The notes below the pieces were generated by a model. The model had not been told where the DNA came from. It searched no databases and worked only from the letters and a program-made list of their open reading frames with translations. From Hexactinellida sp. DTS-2022 (Eukaryota > Porifera > Hexactinellida), in NCBI GenBank assembly GCA_028753945.1, contig JAPNXP010000002.1, positions 5,580,001-5,644,000 on the forward strand: a stretch of DNA of 64,000 bases. Reading direction: 5' to 3'. Each line of letters starts with the position of its first letter. Position 1 is the first letter of the stretch. Below are positions 7,165 to 57,073 of the stretch, piece after piece. Position numbers and translations under genes: made by a program.

Positions 7165-9468
7165 CAGGGGTTTCCAACCTACGGCCCGCGGGCCAGAGTC
7201 CGGCCCGCCAAATGTTTCTGTCCGGCCCGCCTGTCGTTATAACGAACGTAAGTCATACGGCCAAAACACTTTGTATTGATCAATCTTAAATGTTACCAGT
7301 TTGAACTGAGTTTTGCCGAAACACCTCGCGGAATCTCTATAAAATTTCACGAATGTTGCTATCTCAAAACTGTTATTATTTAATATTCGAACACTCGTTT
7401 ATATGATTTCAAAACATATCTCATTTAAACATAAATGCACTATCGTAATATCTGTTTCATTCATGAATTATTAAAATTTTCCGTGAGTAAATTTATTAAC
7501 CTTACTGAAACCAAAGATGGCCACTCCGATGACTGCTGTCAAGAAAAGGAAAATTGATGGAGAATGTCGAATTTTCAAAGGCTCTTGGACTAATGATTTT
7601 TTTGTAATTGAGCACAATGAGGTCCTAGTATGCCTGATATGTCAAGAAAAGATAGCTGTTTTCAAGGAATACAATATCAAGCGACATTACTCTACGAAAC
7701 ACGCTAGCAAATTCGACATGTTGAAGGGTCAGTTGAGAATCGATCGGGCGAACTCGCTAAAACAGAACATGATCGGTCAACAATCTTTATTCAAAGCTGC
7801 AAGAAATAGTTCTGAGGCAGCTACCAAGGTGAGCTTTTTGATATCAGAAGCAATAGCGAAGAGAGGGAAACCATTATCTGATGGAGAATTTGTGAAAGAC
7901 TGCTTGGGCATATTTACATCTCTGGTATGTCCTGACAAAAACTCGATGGTAGAGAAAACCAGCCTTTCATCTCAGACCGTTGCTAGAAGAGTGGATGACC
8001 TCGCAAACAATATTCAAAACATTCTGCTGAACAGACTTAGTGTCTGTCAATTTTATAGTTTAGCCATCGATGAAAGCACAGATGTGTGTGATACAGCTCA
8101 ACTTGCAATATTTATAAGAGGAGTTACAAAAGGTTTTGAAGTCATTGAAGAACTACTCGATCTATGTCCGATGAAAGGCACAACAACTGGACAAGACATT
8201 TTCGACGAAGTGAAACATATAATGATGAAATTCAATTTAAGTGAGGACAAACTTTGTGGCATAACAACTGATGGAGCCCCTGCGATGATAGGAAAGCATA
8301 AAGGATTTACTTCTCTAATGCTTAAATCTATATTCCATGAAGTTATTACACATCACTGCATCATTCACCAGCAACAACTATGTGCAAAAACCCTGGAGAT
8401 GAAACATGTAATGGAAAAGGTTGTTTCTACAGTCAACTTCATAAGATCCAAGGGACTCAATCATAGGCAGTTCCAGGCCTTTCTTACAGAGGTCGGATCA
8501 GACCAAGACGATGTCATTTATTTCAGCCATGTTCGCTGGCTCAGCAGAGCGGCCACTCTTGACAGATTCTATTCCCTACTTGAAGAAATAAAATCCTTCA
8601 TGAAAAGCAAAGAAAGAGATGTAAGCTTTATGGAAGATGATGATTGGTTGAATGACTTGGCATTTCTAGTCGATATTACCAAGTATCTTGCGGAACTTAA
8701 TGTGAAACTACAAGGAAAGGAACAATATGTCAACAAACTGTATGAGCATGTTCAATCATTCATTCGGAAATTAGAATTGATTCAGAAACAGTTTATTAAC
8801 AAGAAATTTTTGCATTTCACAACACTATCTACAAGGGATGGAAGAACAGTGAGGTATGAAAAGTATTCTGCACTCATCGGAATTCTAATTAATGAATTTG
8901 AACAAAGGTTTGCGGATTTCAGGAAACACTGTGAAGAAATAAAACTGTTTTCAGATCCATTTAGAATTGATGTCAATGAAGCTCCTGCCATGTTCCAATT
9001 GGAATTAATTGACATTCAAAGTGACAGTGATTTAAAGAGGGCTTTCGCTGAACATGATCTTCTGACATTTTATCGTCAATATTTAAACTTAGTATCCTAT
9101 CCAAATCTCTCGCAACATGCACTTCGATTTATTGCACTGTTTGGCAGTACGTATTGCTGCGAACAGTTTTTTTCAAGAATGAAAAACGTTAAAACACATA
9201 CGAGATCAAGATTGACAGACGAACATCTTACCGGAATACTCCGTGTCGCTACATCAAGTGTACCAGCAGACATTGACTTTTTATGCAAGCAAAAACAATG
9301 CCAGACATCTCATTAAAGTTCAATAGTAAAGTAATATACGTATAGCTATAATTAGACATAAATTTGATTAATTGCTAATAAACTATCAATTCAACATTTA
9401 TTCATTGGACCTTTATGTGAAATATAGTTGGAATGTGGCCCCTAGCTATAAAAGGTTGGAAGCCCCTG
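7165..9468 (+). mobile_element. Complete autonomous-looking hAT transposon
   Basis: The termini are CAGGGGTTTCCAACCT and its inverse AGGTTGGAAGCCCCTG (15 of 16 match). The flanks at 7157-7164 and 9469-9476 are both CTCTAGAG, a perfect 8-bp target duplication with TA at its centre. The 2,304-bp element carries one uninterrupted transposase gene and an AATAAA signal at 9377-9382. The lack of stops or frameshifts suggests recent activity. Confidence 0.95.
7517..9316 (+). CDS. hAT transposase, GTF2IRD2-like, intact
   Basis: This 599-residue protein excises and inserts the surrounding transposon. A BED-type zinc finger lies at about residues 22-65 (CLICQEK ... HYSTKH). The RNase-H-like core shows the first acidic residue in LAIDESTD (about residue 185), a second in TTDGAPAM (about 252), the hAT-specific CxxH in HHCIIHQ, and VRWLSRA near 340. 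The C-terminal dimerisation region (about 510-585) contains FGSTYCCEQFFS with the final Glu near 549, then RSRLTDEHL. Length and order match GTF2IRD2-like hAT proteins of the Charlie8 type. The ATG sits in AAAGATGG and nothing upstream in frame is homologous. The TA-centred target duplication agrees with the Buster/Charlie side of hAT. All key residues are present, so activity is plausible but not shown. Confidence 0.95.
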   Translation: MATPMTAVKKRKIDGECRIFKGSWTNDFFVIEHNEVLVCLICQEKIAVFKEYNIKRHYSTKHASKFDMLKGQLRIDRANSLKQNMIGQQSLFKAARNSSEAATKVSFLISEAIAKRGKPLSDGEFVKDCLGIFTSLVCPDKNSMVEKTSLSSQTVARRVDDLANNIQNILLNRLSVCQFYSLAIDESTDVCDTAQLAIFIRGVTKGFEVIEELLDLCPMKGTTTGQDIFDEVKHIMMKFNLSEDKLCGITTDGAPAMIGKHKGFTSLMLKSIFHEVITHHCIIHQQQLCAKTLEMKHVMEKVVSTVNFIRSKGLNHRQFQAFLTEVGSDQDDVIYFSHVRWLSRAATLDRFYSLLEEIKSFMKSKERDVSFMEDDDWLNDLAFLVDITKYLAELNVKLQGKEQYVNKLYEHVQSFIRKLELIQKQFINKKFLHFTTLSTRDGRTVRYEKYSALIGILINEFEQRFADFRKHCEEIKLFSDPFRIDVNEAPAMFQLELIDIQSDSDLKRAFAEHDLLTFYRQYLNLVSYPNLSQHALRFIALFGSTYCCEQFFSRMKNVKTHTRSRLTDEHLTGILRVATSSVPADIDFLCKQKQCQTSH

Positions 9469-14044: not shown

Positions 14045-17000
14045 ATGGCAAAAAGGTGCGCTTCTGGGGCCTGGAATTTTTATAATGTCGATTGTGCAGA
14101 TGAGTAAATTGCCAATTGCAACATTCCCGTTTGTTCCGGAAAAACTAGAAAGATACGACGCGGTCCTCATGGAGGGTCAAAAAAGTCTTTTTCAACTAAG
14201 TCACTTTGGAGTCATTTAGAATCGTATCATCCTATGGAGTACAAGCAGGCAATGATAATTCGAAAAGCTGATGAAACTAAAAGGTGCAAGATCGATGAGG
14301 AGAAATCGAAGCTACAATCCATCTACGTTTTGGCTAAACAAGAATCCCAAACTCAATTGAGTCTCGAAGAAACTTTTGAGCTGAAAAACAAGTGGTTGTC
14401 TGATCATCCTGACCAAATTAGTGCAACATATTTTCTGGCTGAATGGATATGTGTTTCACTTCTACCTTACACTATAGTTGAAAACAAAAGATTCAACGTT
14501 TTTGTAAATAAGTTAAATCACAAATTCGATGTTCCAAGTGAAAAAGTCCTCCGCCAAAGGATTATTCCGGATATTTACAGACGTGTACAATACAAAATCA
14601 TGGAACTGCTTCACAATAGTCTAGGCGATTCTTGCAGTGCAACCACAGATATTTGGACTTCAAAGAGTCAGCACGCTTTTATTAGCTTCACACTGCATTT
14701 CATCAACAAAGGGGGAGAGCGAAAGGCAGTTGTGTTGCGTTGTTTTCCATATGATGTGTCACATACTTCTGAATCAATTGGCAAGACGTTACGCATGATC
14801 GTTTCTGATTGGAAATTGGAATGAAAAATCCACTTAAGGCCAAACTATACTCAAGAATGATATTGAGATTCTGATCTTTTTGGATAGTACCCCATAAAAT
14901 AAACCAGCATTTAAAATTTCAGCTGTTTGTGACTCATACTTTCGAAGTTGTGACCTTTTTAGAGCTTAGGAATGTATGCATCATCATCAAAAGCACAGTT
15001 TTCAAATGGACGATCATAACTTTTGGTCTAGATTTCACAGATTTGGTTCAATATGCTTGAAACCAAGTTTAAATGAATGAATACATATGTTCCTTTATAG
15101 AAATACGTTTTTTAACACTTCCGAATAAAACTTTCAGAGTTACAGCACTTTGAAGTAAGATTTCTACCGCCAACCTAAACATTTCGATGTTTGGCAGTCA
15201 AAGACTGACTTCAATGGGCTGTTACTCTGAAAGTTTTTGTCGGAAGTGTTAAAAACGTATTTCTATAATGGAACATATGTATTCATTCATTCAAACTTGG
15301 TTTCGAACATATTGAACCAAATTTGTGGAATCTAGACCAAAAGTTATAATGGTAGGTTTTTACATACACCACTATTTTGACTCAAATCAAGTGAATTCAT
15401 AAGTTTATAACTATTTTGCAAATGCTTTCATCCGTTTTTCATATGAGTTGGTAATAGTACATAGATGTGAATACAAAGTTAGTGCTAAGCTCTAGAGTTT
15501 ATAGTTTTCGAGAAAAATATTTGAAAATCATCAAAAATGGGCACACTTTATGCCCATATATGGTCATTTGGAAAAATTGTGCGAGTTAGGGTCTCAAAAT
15601 GTATTATTGAGGGATAGTAAACCGGGTATTGGGATCATTTTGCACTCAAAATTTTATTTATTGGTCTACGGGTTACTGAGATTCAAAATAGAAAAGTGAA
15701 AGGACCACCCAATGAGTTGAAAGGTCAGAAAGTTTTAATTGCTTGAGCTTCACAGTTTTTATCCTAATTGTTTGAAACCAAGTGTAAACTAATGAATATA
15801 TATTCAATTTGGGAATGACCCTTGATCTAAACTCTACAATGCGAACTTTCAGAGTTCCAGCCCTTTGAAGTCTGACTTGGCACATTGACAATCCAAATCT
15901 GACTTTAAATGACTATAAATCAGAATTTTTCGATTAGAATGTTGAAAATTTTGGTTTAGATCCTAAGTATATATGCAAAGATACTATTGGATGAATAACA
16001 ACGAATTTGATAGTAAATTATGGCAGTGCGAGCCTACAAACTTTTTAACCCATTTGAAAAAGTCACCCTCCATGATGTCCATCACATTCCAGGATCTTAT
16101 AAAGGTCGCTACAGCAAAACTATGGGTCAGATTCACCTGAAATTTGAAATGTAGGTATACTTTACAGGGTACTATCCAAAAACAATCGAATCTCAATTTA
16201 TCTGACGAGCATTGTGGGGCCGTAATTTAAATCTTCGTCCGAAATTGGCTATATAACAGGGAATTCCTGGGTCACAGAGACCTACTGACTTCAAATCTAC
16301 TCAGAATTCAAAAAAATTTTGCCAGATTATTTAACAGTGTGAAACAAACAGGAAAACGAATTAAACTCATTTTCCCATTTGCAGTATAGTTTGGCCTTAA
16401 TTATGCGAGATAATGCCATAAATATGGTGCGTGCGATGGCTGACCACAACTTCTCTAATGCAGGTTGTTTTTTACATACGATCCATCTAGTGGTCATGAA
16501 TTCCATTTTTGAACAAAGTGGCGTACAATCAATGATGGGGCGTGCCAGTAAATTGATTTCTTTTTTTCGGAAGAGTCCGAAGGCGATGGGCGTGCTCAGA
16601 CATCATCAACTGGATCTCAATGGGGTTCCACAATGCACTTTAATTTTAGGCGAAAAAACACGTTGGAATTCTTATTATGATATGTTAGTTCGGCTATTGC
16701 AGCAGAAACGTGCCATTCGTTGTGCAGAAGATGATATCAATATGAATATAGATTATCAACTAACTCCAAATGACTGGATGCTTATTGCCAAAGTAATCAA
16801 ACTATTAAAACCATTCGCTGATGCAACATTGGATGTAGAATACGAAAATGCTTGCATTTCTGATACAATTCCATTGATCAAAAAAATATATTATGAGTTG
16901 AATGCGATTCATGAAATGGGAATCGGTACAATGAAAAGAGAATTGGTCGTACTTATGAACCGATATTTCAGGGGAGAAGATCCGCGAGTGCATTTGTTGA

Positions 17001-17559
17001 CGTTGAAGTTAGCGAAGTGCATGCGCTGGCTACTCTACTTGATCCTAGATATAAAACGAGTGGTTTTATGGTCAAGGCAAAAGCAGAAGTTGCGAAGGAA
17101 AAATTGGCAATCTTTGCATCCAATATCATTGAAGGGTGTTCAACAGAAAACAGTTTCCAAAATGACTCCAGTTCCAATGTGAACAGTTGCTGGGATGCTA
17201 TTTTAAGTGATTCAGATAATGAATTTGATTCGGTTGATCAATATACTACTAGTGATGGACGAGACTCGATAAACGAAAAAGTAAGGAAGGAAATATTCCT
17301 CTATTTTGCTGAAAAGCGAATTAACAGAGAGGTAGATTCATTGTGCTACTGGCGCATGAACTTGAGTTTGTACCCAAAGTTGTCTATACTGGCATTTAGA
17401 TATTTGAGCCCACCCTGTGGTTCAGTTCCAAGTGAACGAGAATTCAAAATTGCGAGTAAGATTTCGGAAGGGGATAGATTCCGTTTGCAACCTCCTAATA
17501 TAGAGAAGCTCTTATTCCTCAAGTATAACCTCCGAGCTATTGGTTTTGCATCATTATAA
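14045..17559 (+). pseudogene. hAT transposase (ZBED-like), split by an insertion
   Basis: The frame begins at 14045 with a BED-like region (W-F-Y, then HLESYH). A TAA interrupts it near 14105. The main N-terminal part follows (14234-14824) with the first catalytic motif in SATTDIWTS. A TGA at 14822 ends it twelve bases before the TTAA element at 14834-16400. Beyond the insertion the same frame resumes with LIMRDNAINM, where RDNA carries the second Asp, followed by AGCFLHTIHL and TRWNSYYDML. A frameshift lies near 17000. The last part has LLDPRYK and the dimerisation motif CGSVPSEREFKIA. Removing the 1.56-kb element and one TTAA leaves the frame continuous apart from the stop. It is dead through two stops, one frameshift and one insertion. 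Confidence 0.85.
14834..16400. mobile_element. 1.56-kb TTAA-flanked non-autonomous element, copy 1
   Basis: The element runs from GGCCAAACTATACT (14838) to AGTATAGTTTGGCC (16396), a perfect 14-bp inverted repeat, with TTAA at 14834-14837 and 16397-16400. It sits inside the hAT gene, and the second copy (39335-40904) is about 95% identical by eye. Subterminal inverted blocks ('GAATGAATACATATGTTCC' near 15073 and its inverse near 15275) make a large internal foldback. TTAA duplication and precise gene disruption point to a piggyBac-type transposase acting in trans. The small frame at 15673-15891 recurs in both copies but looks non-coding. Confidence 0.92.
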
Positions 17560-38647: not shown

Positions 38648-41483
38648 GCGCCCCAGGTTGACGCCGTCAAACAATATACTAAGTGGACAGTCTACCCTCC
38701 CCCTGGCTGGTTGTGCCTGTTCAAGTGTGGTTCAATATTAGTCAAATATACATAATTTGAGTTAAACTAGGTCAACTACGTCAAATAATTACTAAGTGGA
38801 CTGGCTCCCCGTTCCCCTGGACTGATGTGTTTGTTGAAGTAAAGCTTAATATCAGAGAAATATATATAATTTGTTTCAAAATAAAGTTGACGCCGTCAAA
38901 AAATATACTAAGTGGACAGTCTACCCTCCCCCTGGCTGGTTGTGCCTGTTCAAGTGTGGTTCAATATTTGTCAAATATACCTAATTTGAGTTAAACTAGG
39001 TGAACTACGACAAATAATATACTAAGTGGACAGTCTACCACTCCCCCTGGCCGGTTGTGCCTGTTCAAGTGTGGTTCAATATTAGTCAAATATACATAAT
39101 TTGGGTTAAACTAGGTCAACTACGATAAATAATTACTAAGTGGACTGGCTCCCCCTTCCCCTGGACTGATGTGTTTGTTGAAGTGAAGCTTAATATCAGA
39201 GAAATATATATAATTTGTTTCAATACAAAGCTGACGCCGTCAAACAATATACTAAGTGGACAGTCTACCCTCCCCCTGGCTGGTTGTGCCTGTTCAAGTG
39301 TGGGTCAATATTAGTCAAATATACACAATTTGAGTTAAGGCCAAACTATACTCAAGAATGATATTGAGATTATGATCTTTTTGGATAGTACCCTATAAAA
39401 TAAACCAGCATTTAAAATTTCAGCTGTTTCTGACTCATACTTTCGAAGTTGCGACCTTTTTAGAGCTTAGGAATGTATGCATCATCATCAAAAGCTCAGT
39501 TTTCAAATGGACGATCATAACTTTTGGTCTAGATTTCACAGATTTGGTTCAATATGCTTGAAACCAAGTTTAAATGAATGAATACATATGTTCCTTTATA
39601 GAAATACGTTTTTTAACACTTCCGAAATAAACTTTCAGAGTTACAGCACTTTGAAGTCAGATTTCTACCGCCAACCTATAACATTTCGATGTTTGGCAGT
39701 CAAAGACTGACTTCAATGGGCTGTTACTCTGAAAGTTTTTGTCGGAAGTGTTAAAAAACGTATTTCTATAATGGAACATATGTATTCATTCATTCAAACT
39801 TGGTTTCGAACATATTGAACCAAATTTGTGGAATCTAGACCAAAAGTTATAATGGTAGGTTTTTACATACACCACTATTTTGACTCAAATCAAGTGAATT
39901 TATATGTTTATAACAATTTTGCAAATGCTTTCATCCGTTTTTCATATGAGTTGGTAATAGTACATAGATGTGAATACAAAGTTAGTGCTAAGCTCTAGAG
40001 TTTATAGTTTTCGAGAAAAATATTTGCTAAATCATAAAAATGGGCACACTTTATGCCCATATATGGTCATTTGGAAAAATTGTGCGAGTTAGGGTCTCAA
40101 AATGTATTATTGAGGGATAGTAAACCGGGTATTGGGATCATTTTGCACTCAAAATTTTATTTATTGGTCTACGGGTTACTGAGATTCAAAATAGAAAAGT
40201 GAAAGGACCACCCAATGAGTTGAAAGGTGAGAAAGTTTTAATTGCTTGAGCTTTCACAGTTTTTATCCTAATTGTTTGAAACCAAGTGTAAACTAATGAA
40301 TATATATTCAATTTGGGAATGACCCTTGATCTAAACTCTACAATGCGAACTTTCAGAGTTCCAGCCCTTTGAAGTCTGACTTGGCACATTGACAATCCAA
40401 ATCTGACTTTAAATGACTATAACTCAGAATTTTTTGATTAGAATGTTGAAATTTTTGGTTTAGAACCTAAGTATATATGCAAAGATACTATTGGATGAAT
40501 AACAACGAAATTGATAGTAAATTATGGCATTGCGAGCCTACAAACCATTTAACCCATTTGAAAAAGTCACCCTCCATGATGTCCATCACATTCCAGGATC
40601 TTATAAAGGTCGCTACAGCAAAACTATAGGTCAGATTCACCTGAAATTTGAAATGTAGTTATACTTTACAGGGTACTATCCAAAAACAATCGAATCTCAA
40701 TTTATCTGACGAGCATTGTGGGGCCGTAATTTAAATTTTCGTCCGAAATTGGCTATATAACAGGGAATTACTGGGTCACAGAGCCCTACTGACTTCAAAT
40801 CTACTCAGAATTCAAAAAAATTTTGCCAGATTATCTACCAGTGTGAAACAAACAGGAAAACGAATTAAACTCATTTTCCCATTTGCAGTATAGTTTGGCC
40901 TTAAACTAGGTGAACTACGACAAATAATATACTAAGTTGATGTCTCCACCTTCACCTGGACGGATATTTTTGTTGAAGTGAAGCTCAATATTAGAGAAAT
41001 ATACATAATTTGATTCAAAACAAAGTTGACCCCGTCAAACTATATACTAAGTGGACAGTCTACCCTCCCCCTGTCTGGTTGTGCCTGTTCAAGTGTGGGT
41101 CAATATTTGTCAAATATACATAATTTGAGTTAAACTAGGTGAACTACGACAAATAATATACTAAGTTGATGTCTCCCCCTTCCCCTGGCCGGATGTGTTT
41201 GTTGAAGTGAGGCTCAATATTAGTCAAATATACATAATTTGAGTTAAAATAGGTGAAATACTACAAATAATAGACTAAGTTGACTGTCTACCCCTTCCCC
41301 TGGACGTATGTGTTAGTTGAAGTGAAGCTCAATATCAGAGAAATATATATAATTTGTTTCAAAACAAAGTTGACGCCGTCAAACAATATACTAAGTGGAC
41401 AGTCTACCCTCCCCCTGTTTGGTTGTGCCTGTTCAAGTGTGGGTCAATATTAGTCAAATATACATAATTTGAGTTAAACTAGG
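38648..41483 (+). repeat. ~115-bp satellite with two-unit order
   Basis: Units contain 'ATACTAAGTGGACAGTCTACCCTCCCCCTGG' type and 'ATTACTAAGTGGACTGGCTCCCC' type sequences in alternation, so the higher-order period is about 230 bp. Landmarks are 'TGTGCCTGTTCAAGTGTGG', 'AATTTGAGTTAAACTAGG' and 'TGTGTTTGTTGAAGTGAAGC'. About eleven units are visible; the array is split by the TTAA element at 39335-40904. Confidence 0.9.
39335..40904. mobile_element. 1.56-kb TTAA-flanked non-autonomous element, copy 2
   Basis: Same termini as the copy at 14834 (GGCCAAACTATACT and inverse), 1,562 bp between TTAA sites. The insertion point is TTTGAG-TTAA-ACTAGG; neighbouring satellite units carry the uninterrupted TTTGAGTTAAACTAGG, a clean empty site with only TTAA duplicated. 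Confidence 0.95.
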
Positions 41484-41659
41484 TTAACAATAGATAATAC
41501 GAAGGGTATTATGGGACAAACTAACGTGTCCAAGTACTATTTAGATTTCCAGGGGACACTTAGCCTTCAACGGGTCAACGGGCTTATGGTGTAATCACCA
41601 TTACAATTCCATTTGTAATAATTATTGGAGCTTATAGCAAACGAAATCAACTAAAGATA

Positions 41660-50946: not shown

Positions 50947-51318
50947 TCGCTCCACGGGACCCTTACACTGGGGGATACACGAACGCACAGAGATCGCTCC
51001 ACGGGTTCCTTACACTGGGGGTACACGGACGCACAGAGATCACTCCACGGGTCCCTTACACTGGGAGGTACACGGACGCACACAGATCGCTCCACGGGAA
51101 CCTTACACTGGGGGGTACAGGGACGCACAAAGATCGCTCCACGGGTCCCTTACACTGGGGGATACACGGACGCACAGAGATCGCTCCACGGGACCCTTAC
51201 ACTGGGGGATACACGGACGCACAGAGATCGCTCCACGGGTCCATTACACTGGGGAATACACGGACGCACAGAGATCGCTCCACGGGTCCCTTACACGGGG
51301 GGGTACACGGACTCGTAT
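50947..51318 (+). repeat. 47-bp minisatellite, 8 copies
   Basis: Units 'TCGCTCCACGGGTCCCTTACACTGGGGG...ACGCACAGAGA' of 46-47 bp. Because 47 is not a multiple of three, long open frames on both strands cycle through three phases of the same unit; they are judged non-coding. Confidence 0.92.
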
Positions 51319-51626: not shown

Positions 51627-51958
51627 ATGTTGTAAATGAGCATCACTATGACCTTCGGGAGTAGTGTCCTTGGGAAAGGCACTAGGTGGCAGTACGGGCA
51701 GACTATGACTACGGGTCTTAGTTTTCACATGCCGGCAGTATGACTGGTAACCTACACTAGGTTGGCGCGAGCCGCTATAAGAGTGGTTGAGGGTTACCCC
51801 ACTCCTGATGAGTCCCTGCACTGGGACGAAACCACTGACATGATATCCCGATGAGTTGGGGGCCTATTGGACGATTAGTCTTCATACAAAGTCGTGGTCC
51901 CATCTCATATCAAGTATACCAATTAGTCTCGAGGGAAGAGATTCAGGGAAAGCACATT
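51627..51958 (+). repeat. Hammerhead-bearing repeat, copy 1
   Basis: About 330 bp shared with 56741-57073 at roughly 93% by eye, from 'TGTTGTAAATGAGCATCA' to 'CAGGGAAAGCACATT'. The minus strand has a frame with KTRSHSLPVLPPSAFPKD also present in the other copy. The ribozyme-like core lies at 51781-51899. Confidence 0.85.
51781..51899 (+). ncRNA. Hammerhead-ribozyme-like motif, permuted, copy 1
   Basis: The core CTGATGAG (51805-51812), stem II TCCC/GGGA with a 6-base loop, and CGAAAC (51827-51832) match the hammerhead consensus. A closed stem I is formed by GAGTGG (51781) and CCACTC (51799). Stem III could form between CCAC-T-GAC after the GAAA and GTCGTGG at 51891-51897, followed by UC, the expected bases before the cleavage point. 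In this arrangement the scissile strand is open: 51899 would be the 3' end and 51781 the 5' end of a cleaved or circularly permuted molecule. A standard contiguous cleavage site (UH directly before GAGTGG) is absent, since the genomic bases there are AA. Confidence 0.5.
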
Positions 51959-52025: not shown

Positions 52026-52256
52026 GTACACAGAGCATGCTCCTTGGATACACAGAGCATGCTCCTTGGGTACACAGAGCATGCTCCTTGGGTACACAGA
52101 GCATGCTCCTTGGGTACACAGAGCATGCTCAGTAGGTACACAGAGCATGCTCAGTAGATACACAGAGCATGCTCAGTAGGTACACAGAGCATGCTTAGTA
52201 GGTACACACAGCATGCTCCTTAGAAAGTACACAGAGCATGCTCCCTAGAAAGTACC
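52026..52256 (+). repeat. 22-bp minisatellite, 10 copies
   Basis: Units 'GTACACAGAGCATGCTCCTTGG' with later variants CAGTAG. Each unit contains the palindrome GAGCATGCTC. Confidence 0.92.
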
Positions 52257-53589: not shown

Positions 53590-53946
53590 AACAGCGAGGG
53601 TGGAGGGCAGGTGGAGGGTGGAGCGCGGATGGAAGGTGGAGGGCAGGTGGAGGGTGGAGCGCGGAGGAAGGTGGAGCGCAGTTGGAAGGTGGAGCGCGGA
53701 TGGAAGGTAGAGCGCGTGTGGAAGGTGGAGCGCGGATGGAAGGTGGAGCGCAGGTGGAAGGTGGAGCGCGGATGGAAGGTGGAGCGCAGGTGGAAGGTGG
53801 AGCGCGGGTGGAAGGTAGAGCGCGGGTGGAAGGTGGAGGGCAGGTGGAAGGTGGAGCGCGGGTGGAAGGTGGAGGGCAGGTGGAAGGGGAGCGCGGGTGG
53901 AAGGTGGAGCGCAGGTGGAAGGTGGAGCGCGGGTGGAAGGTGGAGT
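53590..53946 (+). repeat. 18-bp minisatellite, about 20 copies
   Basis: Units GTGGAAGGTGGAGCGCGG with CAGG variants. As 18 is a multiple of three, all frames stay open on both strands (repeated VEGGAR on the plus, PPALHL on the minus). No start context or flanking homology supports a gene. Confidence 0.9.
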
Positions 53947-56740: not shown

Positions 56741-57073
56741 TATGTTGTGAATGAGCATCACAATGACTTTCGGGAGTAGTGTCCTTGGGAAAGGCACTAG
56801 GTGGCAGTACGGGTACACTATGACTACGGGTCTTAGTATTCACATGCCGGCAGTATGACTGTAACCTACACTAGGTTGGCGCGAGGCGCTATAAGAGTGG
56901 TTGAGGGTTACCCCACTCCTGATGAGTCCCTGCAATGGAACGAAACCACGGACATGATAACCCTATGAGTTTGGGGGCCTATTGGACGATTAGTCTTCAT
57001 ACAAAGTCGTGGTCCCATCTCATATCAAGTATACCAATTAGTCTCGAGGGAAGAGATTCAGGGAAAGCACATT
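56741..57073 (+). repeat. Hammerhead-bearing repeat, copy 2
   Basis: Same unit as 51627-51958 and same orientation, about 5.1 kb downstream. Confidence 0.85.
56895..57014 (+). ncRNA. Hammerhead-ribozyme-like motif, permuted, copy 2
   Basis: GAGTGG/CCACTC stem I, CTGATGAG (56919-56926), CGAAAC (56941-56946), CCAC-G-GAC and GTCGTGGTC (57006-57014) are all kept. Stem II has one mismatch (TCCC against GGAA). Core and helices I and III are conserved while neighbouring bases differ. Confidence 0.45.

Follow-up and report, generated by a model that had tools for sequence, protein, structure and literature searches.

Plant LTR retrozymes, described from Jatropha, citrus, and other plants, are among the closest known systems to the locus presented here. 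The available portions of PMC4918200 describe them as direct repeats of 300 to 400 bp that carry hammerhead ribozymes around a noncoding center of 300 to 600 bp, with 4-bp duplications, many solo LTRs, and Ty3/gypsy-like primer-binding site (PBS) and polypurine tract (PPT) boxes. Their circular RNA is proposed in the same portions as the source of solo, full, or multimeric copies. According to the excerpts of PMC7229834, the hammerheads of plant LTR retrozymes are of type III. Animal retrozymes appear in the excerpts of PMC7229834 and PMC7761336 as type I elements without LTR, PBS, or PPT, and the same excerpts place type III hammerheads and LTR retrozymes mostly in plants. A 2011 survey, in the portion of PMC3088659 available, assigns the hammerheads of eukaryotic repeats to type I in the vast majority of cases. 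Insects and bacteria have elements with type III hammerheads, and toads and termites have delta-virus-like circular RNAs with variants of this type (PMC7761336, in excerpt), so that a type III ribozyme alone would be no novelty in an animal. Searches of open-licence papers brought up no description of an animal LTR retrozyme, and the novelty of the present locus is the anatomy of an LTR retrozyme in an animal.

The window analyzed here, a stretch of 64,000 nucleotides from Hexactinellida sp. DTS-2022 (assembly GCA_028753945.1, contig JAPNXP010000002.1, positions 5,580,001 to 5,644,000), contains two solo LTRs, both decayed and on the forward (+) strand, from an animal family that resembles LTR retrozymes. 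The first is an element of 285 nt at positions 51628 to 51912, reading 5'-TGTTGTAAATGAG...CATCTCATATCA-3' with TG...CA ends and with boundaries taken from an alignment of 21 instances. Its flanks differ, with TTTA on the left and AGTA on the right, and form no matching duplication. The second copy, likewise of 285 nt, lies at positions 56743 to 57027 with AGTA on both sides and contains a decayed hammerhead with its core at 56919 to 56946. Judged from the genomic letters, the ribozyme motif of the first copy is very probably what remains of a type III hammerhead inside the solo LTR of a nonautonomous, noncoding LTR retroelement of the retrozyme kind, a reading that includes the proposed circular-RNA cycle.

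The motif itself, though decayed, has the normal strand order of a type III hammerhead, with its open ends in stem III. Aligned end to end with the type III model RF00008 (Hammerhead_3), positions 51781 to 51837 (+) reach 40.2 bits (E = 2.3e-7 in a search of 501 bases) against a gathering score of 48.5 bits, and Rfam at gathering thresholds gives no match in the window. The copy resembles the model in fold, core, and strand order and departs from it in staying under the cutoff, in the T at the cleavage site, and in the broken stem I. The alignment places GAGTGGT as the 5' strand of stem III and stem I after the cleavage site; AGTGGT (51782 to 51787) pairs with ACCACT (51831 to 51836), which stands directly after CGAA. 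The cleavage-site base H17 is T at position 51788, and the predicted cut falls between 51788 and 51789. It is followed by a damaged stem I (51789 to 51804), which reads GAGGGTTACCCCACTC compared with GAGGGTTACCCTC in most aligned copies, a three-base insertion. Next come the conserved core CTGATGA (51805 to 51811), stem II with the sequence GTCCC-TGCACT-GGGAC (51812 to 51827), and the GAA core with the 3' strand of stem III (51828 to 51836), the last supported by the RF00008 alignment and by covariation across copies. In the fold of a 62-nt piece (z = -1.52), stems III and II form and stem I is weak. The window copy is probably dead, its cleavage presumably lost, because of the T at the cleavage site and the broken stem I. 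The ribozyme of the second window copy shows no folding advantage over shuffles (z = 0.00), and the type III fold is not its minimum-energy structure.

The preliminary description had interpreted positions 51781 to 51899 as a circularly permuted hammerhead, either a cleaved RNA copied into DNA or a unit working solely as a circle or dimer, with GAGTGG and CCACTC closing stem I as a local hairpin, with CCACTGAC (51832 to 51839) paired to GTCGTGG (51891 to 51897) as stem III, and with 51899 and 51781 as the outer ends to be joined. The derivation from a hammerhead is borne out by the RF00008 alignment and by normal-order relatives across the genome, and the exactness of stem II and CGAAAC is confirmed in the window letters. 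The other letters are present as well, namely CTGATGAG at 51805 to 51812, GAGTGG...CCACTC, and the complementarity of CCACTGAC to GTCGTGG with one T bulged, yet the two pairings do not hold as a structure conserved among copies. The permuted fold is the minimum-energy structure of the 119-nt piece, which speaks in its favor, but 73 of 200 shuffles are equally good (z = -0.21). The low probability of a chance occurrence applies to the core, since the window has two matches to CTGATGA-N(4-30)-CGAAAC compared with 0.04 expected by chance (51805 to 51832 and 56919 to 56946, both cores lying in copies of one repeat), and not to the arrangement proposed for it.

The letters that suggested a permuted order can be traced in the relatives of the window copy. 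Related copies show GTGGTC, then GAGGG-TTA-CCCTC, followed by CTGATGAG...CGAAAC-CAC, with the predicted cut site at GTGGTC|GAGGG; the pairing of AGTGGT with ACCACT after CGAA had been overlooked in the first reading. An insertion of CCA, which changes CCCTC to CCCCACTC, is common to three local copies: those at 51628 and 56743 and another some 50 kb farther on. Both window copies have T for C17, and the third local copy keeps C and has a damaged core (CTAATGA). GAGTGG and CCACTC are therefore self-complementary by accident, through the change of CCCTC to CCCCACTC together with the change of C17 to T in the window copies. Three of the six columns of this hairpin are filled with letters in just 2 of 63 distinct rows of the family alignment, which are the two window copies; the third local copy, outside this alignment, also has CCACTC. 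GTCGTGG belongs to the conserved 3' region of the LTR and is unchanged in copies such as that at locus L007 despite an altered CCACxxxx partner (both by alignment by eye). The proposed outer ends both lie inside the element, whose own ends are 51628 and 51912. With the fold compared with shuffles, the 2 of 63 rows, and a normal type III order that suits the related copies with covariation in stems II and III, the permuted arrangement is ruled out as the structure of the family, and as an explanation of the locus it is very improbable. The part of the idea concerned with circles fares better, as the ribozyme family may well work via tandem or circular RNA by analogy with published retrozymes.

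The family of type III hammerheads to which the window copies belong is spread over the host genome. With as many as 3 mismatches allowed, a 27-nt ribozyme pattern matches the 112.4-Mb genome at 342 places (169 forward and 173 reverse), and the reversed pattern matches it at 0. The RF00008 search of the genome gives 64 of 68 scored matches over 48.5 bits, the best at 64.3 (68 scored of 12,319 candidates), and responds in 0 of 14 control genomes. At least 64 places elsewhere thus retain a predicted ribozyme above the Rfam cutoff. In the alignment of 71 copies, which form 63 distinct rows, 94.5% of the pair cells of the type III structure are paired compared with 91.0% after shuffling, and sliding the 3' partners lowers the paired cells to 57.4% at most. 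Double-sided changes occur in 8 of 16 pairs (3 of 6 in stem III, 4 of 5 in stem II, and 1 of 5 in stem I) compared with 3.1 in shuffles that ignore relatedness, and none of 500 shuffles reaches this number; the outermost pair of stem III is paired in just 34 of 62 rows. At the cleavage site, 65 of the 71 copies have C, which follows the conserved U in 64 cases; the 2 window copies have T, 2 others have G, one has A, and one has a gap. Both G bases belong to a different ribozyme family at locus L070, where the alignment columns misfit. The type III fold is the minimum-energy structure of four copies with different stem III types (L011, L016, L021, and L013), whose folding beats shuffles modestly (z of -1.05 to -1.98). 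By the RF00008 cutoff and covariation the genomic family is assigned to the type III hammerheads, and self-cleavage is predicted. The preliminary description had looked to a covariance-model match and to compensatory changes among genomic copies as signs of a real ribozyme; the changes are present, and the match passes the cutoff for the family and not for the window copy.

Two hammerheads at L070, located at 1066 to 1121 and 7999 to 8056, are of type III as well and form a separate family with other stem sequences (39.8 and 36.2 bits, under the cutoff). In the viral contigs scanned, a 25-nt stretch of the ribozyme has 0 exact matches.

The ribozymes are carried by units with the ends of LTRs. 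In the alignment of 21 of 52 instances that defines the element boundaries, both ends are sharp, with TGTTGTGAATGAG or TGTGACG on the left and CATCTCATAACA (or -GACA, -ATCA, or -GATA) on the right. With end motifs picked after part of the same loci had been viewed, both ends are found automatically in 32 of 61 distinct instances with flanks. Exact 4-bp target duplications surround 10 of these 32 units, compared with a mean of 0.6 and a maximum of 4 in shuffles, and duplications of 5 to 7 bp are found in none of the 32. As a control, moving the left boundary 1 to 3 bases in either direction yields one 4-bp duplication in all. The remaining 22 units are without an exact 4-bp duplication, 4 of them matching in 3 of 4 bases, and some of the 32 lie inside arrays, where no duplication is expected.

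A third related solo LTR (C11:5686626-5686910) is 96% identical over 285 nt. It has both flanks in common with the 51628 copy and the right flank alone in common with the 56743 copy, and it is probably part of a duplicated chromosome stretch because of the flanks common with the 51628 copy. The last four bases of the LTR recur just after the ribozyme: they agree in 25 of the 35 copies, out of 71, in which both sites were found, compared with 9.5 (maximum 18) after shuffling, part of which relatedness may explain. The corresponding sites in the window are 51839 to 51845 and 51906 to 51912, and both window copies are among the 10 of 35 that differ.

Ten composite copies (L066, L084, L085, L086, L008, L026, L049, L087, L012, and L062) show how the units are combined, and exact 4-bp duplications surround the whole composite in 8 of the 10, being absent in L008 and L012. 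L066 is an array of LTRs in both orientations and includes two LTRs of 325 nt, identical at 324 of 325 positions (99.7%), around an internal part of 161 nt. L084 and L085 each have the form LTR-internal-LTR over 684 nt, with a first LTR that is without the 3' part of the second. A hammerhead inside direct LTRs flanking a noncoding part is thus found in L066, and in L084 and L085 with the first LTR incomplete. A polypurine tract stands before the 3' LTR in all three LTR-internal-LTR units looked at, as AAAGGGAAGGTGA directly before the second LTR of L066, AACAAGGGGGGTGA in L084, and AACAAGGGGGTTGA in L085. Complete internal parts of the L066 type number 3, all in one array, with 2 further partial matches, and those of the L084 type number 2, with 3 partial. 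L086 is a tandem LTR dimer with a period of 238 nt. L008, L026, L049, and L087 are palindromes, and L012 and L062 have inverted arms. The direct ribozyme pairs at L067, L068, and L069 were considered as LTR pairs as well; they share just about 50 to 58 nt and are therefore neighboring different elements.

These features match the plant LTR retrozymes, as far as the available portions of PMC4918200 describe them, in the hammerhead within a noncoding element with LTRs of about 300 to 400 bp, in the 4-bp duplications, the polypurine tract, the solo LTRs, and the dimers, and putatively in a Ty3/gypsy helper. The elements differ from the plant retrozymes of the same portions in the animal host, in the internal part of 161 nt in L066 compared with 300 to 600, in the palindromic copies with inverted LTRs, and in a hairpin located where plants have a tRNA-Met primer site. 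This junction hairpin of L066 is formed by the last bases of the LTR and the first internal bases (-31 kcal/mol, z = -6.2, with 0 of 200 shuffles as good) and occupies the place expected for a tRNA PBS. No tRNA-type primer site was noticed in an unsystematic look at the LTR units. LTR ends facing their own reverse complement across a short center are found in L026, L045, L049, L060 (weak), and L066; the automatic scan for such centers did not catch L008, L012, L062, and L087. Together, the hairpin and the palindromes suggest that reverse transcription could be primed by the hairpin. The simplest account of both is that the 3' arm of the hairpin would prime the copying of the LTR and would sometimes stay attached, yielding inverted LTRs.

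The LTR retrotransposon at L088 (1172 to 5895) may be of the kind of helper that such a nonautonomous element needs. One open frame contains reverse transcriptase, RNase H, and the zinc finger and core of an integrase, a domain order that is presumably that of Ty3/gypsy. Its LTRs of 177 nt are identical (100%), end in TGTTATA...ACAACA, contain no CTGATGA, and are accompanied by a 4-bp duplication (GTAG) and by GGAAGGGGGAATGA before the LTR. L088 has TGA|TGTTATA and the purine tract in common with L084 and L085, a comparison of one element out of 150 scored integrase matches, and resting on this one element its role as a helper is suggestive only. One base after the LTR, L088 contains an 11-nt stretch complementary to its own LTR, which 0 of 5,000 random internal 32-mers show. 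LTR retrotransposons of the Tf1/sushi type are self-primed, with a primer from the element's own RNA. The self-complement of L088 resembles this type, and the retrozyme elements differ from it in that their complement is part of a local hairpin immediately downstream and is not at the 5' end of the RNA.

In the cycle proposed for the retrozyme-like family, a transcript through two LTRs would be cut by both ribozymes, and the unit released would close to a circular RNA. Reverse transcriptase and integrase of a Ty3/gypsy element of the host genome would copy and insert this circle, as proposed for plants, with solo, full, or multimeric copies as the outcome. Less surely, priming might take place from the hairpin beginning at the 3' end of the LTR; a 3' arm kept joined to the cDNA could then give an inverted LTR-hairpin-LTR palindrome, which might insert through the 5' ends of its two LTRs. 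Whether these elements constitute an animal LTR retrozyme class of their own, with type III ribozymes in the LTRs, a Ty3/gypsy helper, priming by the junction hairpin and not by tRNA, and the palindromes as fossils of that priming, is evenly balanced. Covarying type III LTR retrozymes of several families in an animal would blur the division between plants and animals and prompt the question whether viroid-like circular RNAs were transferred horizontally or arose independently, and the junction hairpin with the palindromes offers a testable idea for the priming of such RNAs.

The palindromes are the reason why a DNA transposon with inverted repeats is kept as a rival. DNA transposons of the Ginger-like kind have TGT... 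ends and 4-bp duplications, and a miniature inverted-repeat form of them could have picked up the hammerhead by chance, the palindromes being its long terminal inverted repeats. The 4-bp duplications around the whole palindromes of L026, L049, and L087 and around L062, where the arms stand apart, agree with such an origin, as do the many integrase domains of the genome (706 candidates, of which 150 were scored and all 150 passed the cutoff). The same reading has to accommodate single units inserted with 4-bp duplications of their own, direct LTR-internal-LTR copies whose second LTR is preceded by a purine tract, and the tandem dimer L086, none of which has the form of a DNA transposon, and a ribozyme inside it would probably have no evident use. 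It is accordingly unlikely.

Penelope-like elements and metazoan non-LTR retrozymes are the usual animal hosts of hammerheads, and the animal genome would suit them, as would short units in tandem like those of L086 with its period of 238 nt. Like the metazoan non-LTR retrozymes in the excerpts of PMC7229834 and PMC7761336, the present elements are small noncoding animal repeats with hammerheads, often in tandem; unlike them, they have a type III ribozyme, LTR-like ends, a purine tract, and 4-bp duplications. The ribozymes of both kinds of host are type I in these excerpts, whereas the strand order here is that of type III, and the type I model RF00163 gives 0 matches in the genome (73 scored of 14,702 candidates, a search with no positive control). 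An origin from either is extremely improbable: the metazoan type I retrozyme was set aside on the strand order and the RF00163 result, and a SINE or Penelope reading was given up on the TG...CA ends, the 4-bp duplications, and the purine tract. The preferred reading remains the decayed type III hammerhead in the solo LTR of a retrozyme-like element.

The host genome shows a homeodomain with Msx-1 as the best solved relative and, by eye, an NK-like homeodomain, and these two support an animal host. An Antennapedia-type homeodomain query gives just 3 matches in this genome, at 45 to 46% identity. A search of the genome for the Wnt family, run with no positive control, gives 0 candidates, and no telomere repeat was seen by eye at contig ends in the 4 readable stretches out of 5.

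The window contains several further repeats. Two tandem arrays lie beside the first solo LTR, at 50947 to 51312 (47-nt units, 7.8 copies) and 52026 to 52244 (22-nt units, 9.8 copies), and a satellite of 115 nt forms two arrays at 38655 to 39338 and 40901 to 41488, about 1.6 kb apart. An 18-nt repeat at 53599 to 53945 (19.4 copies) is open in several frames and is probably not a gene. Long open frames at 7487 to 9316, 14108 to 14824, and 16343 to 17559 resemble, by eye, transposases of the hAT type.
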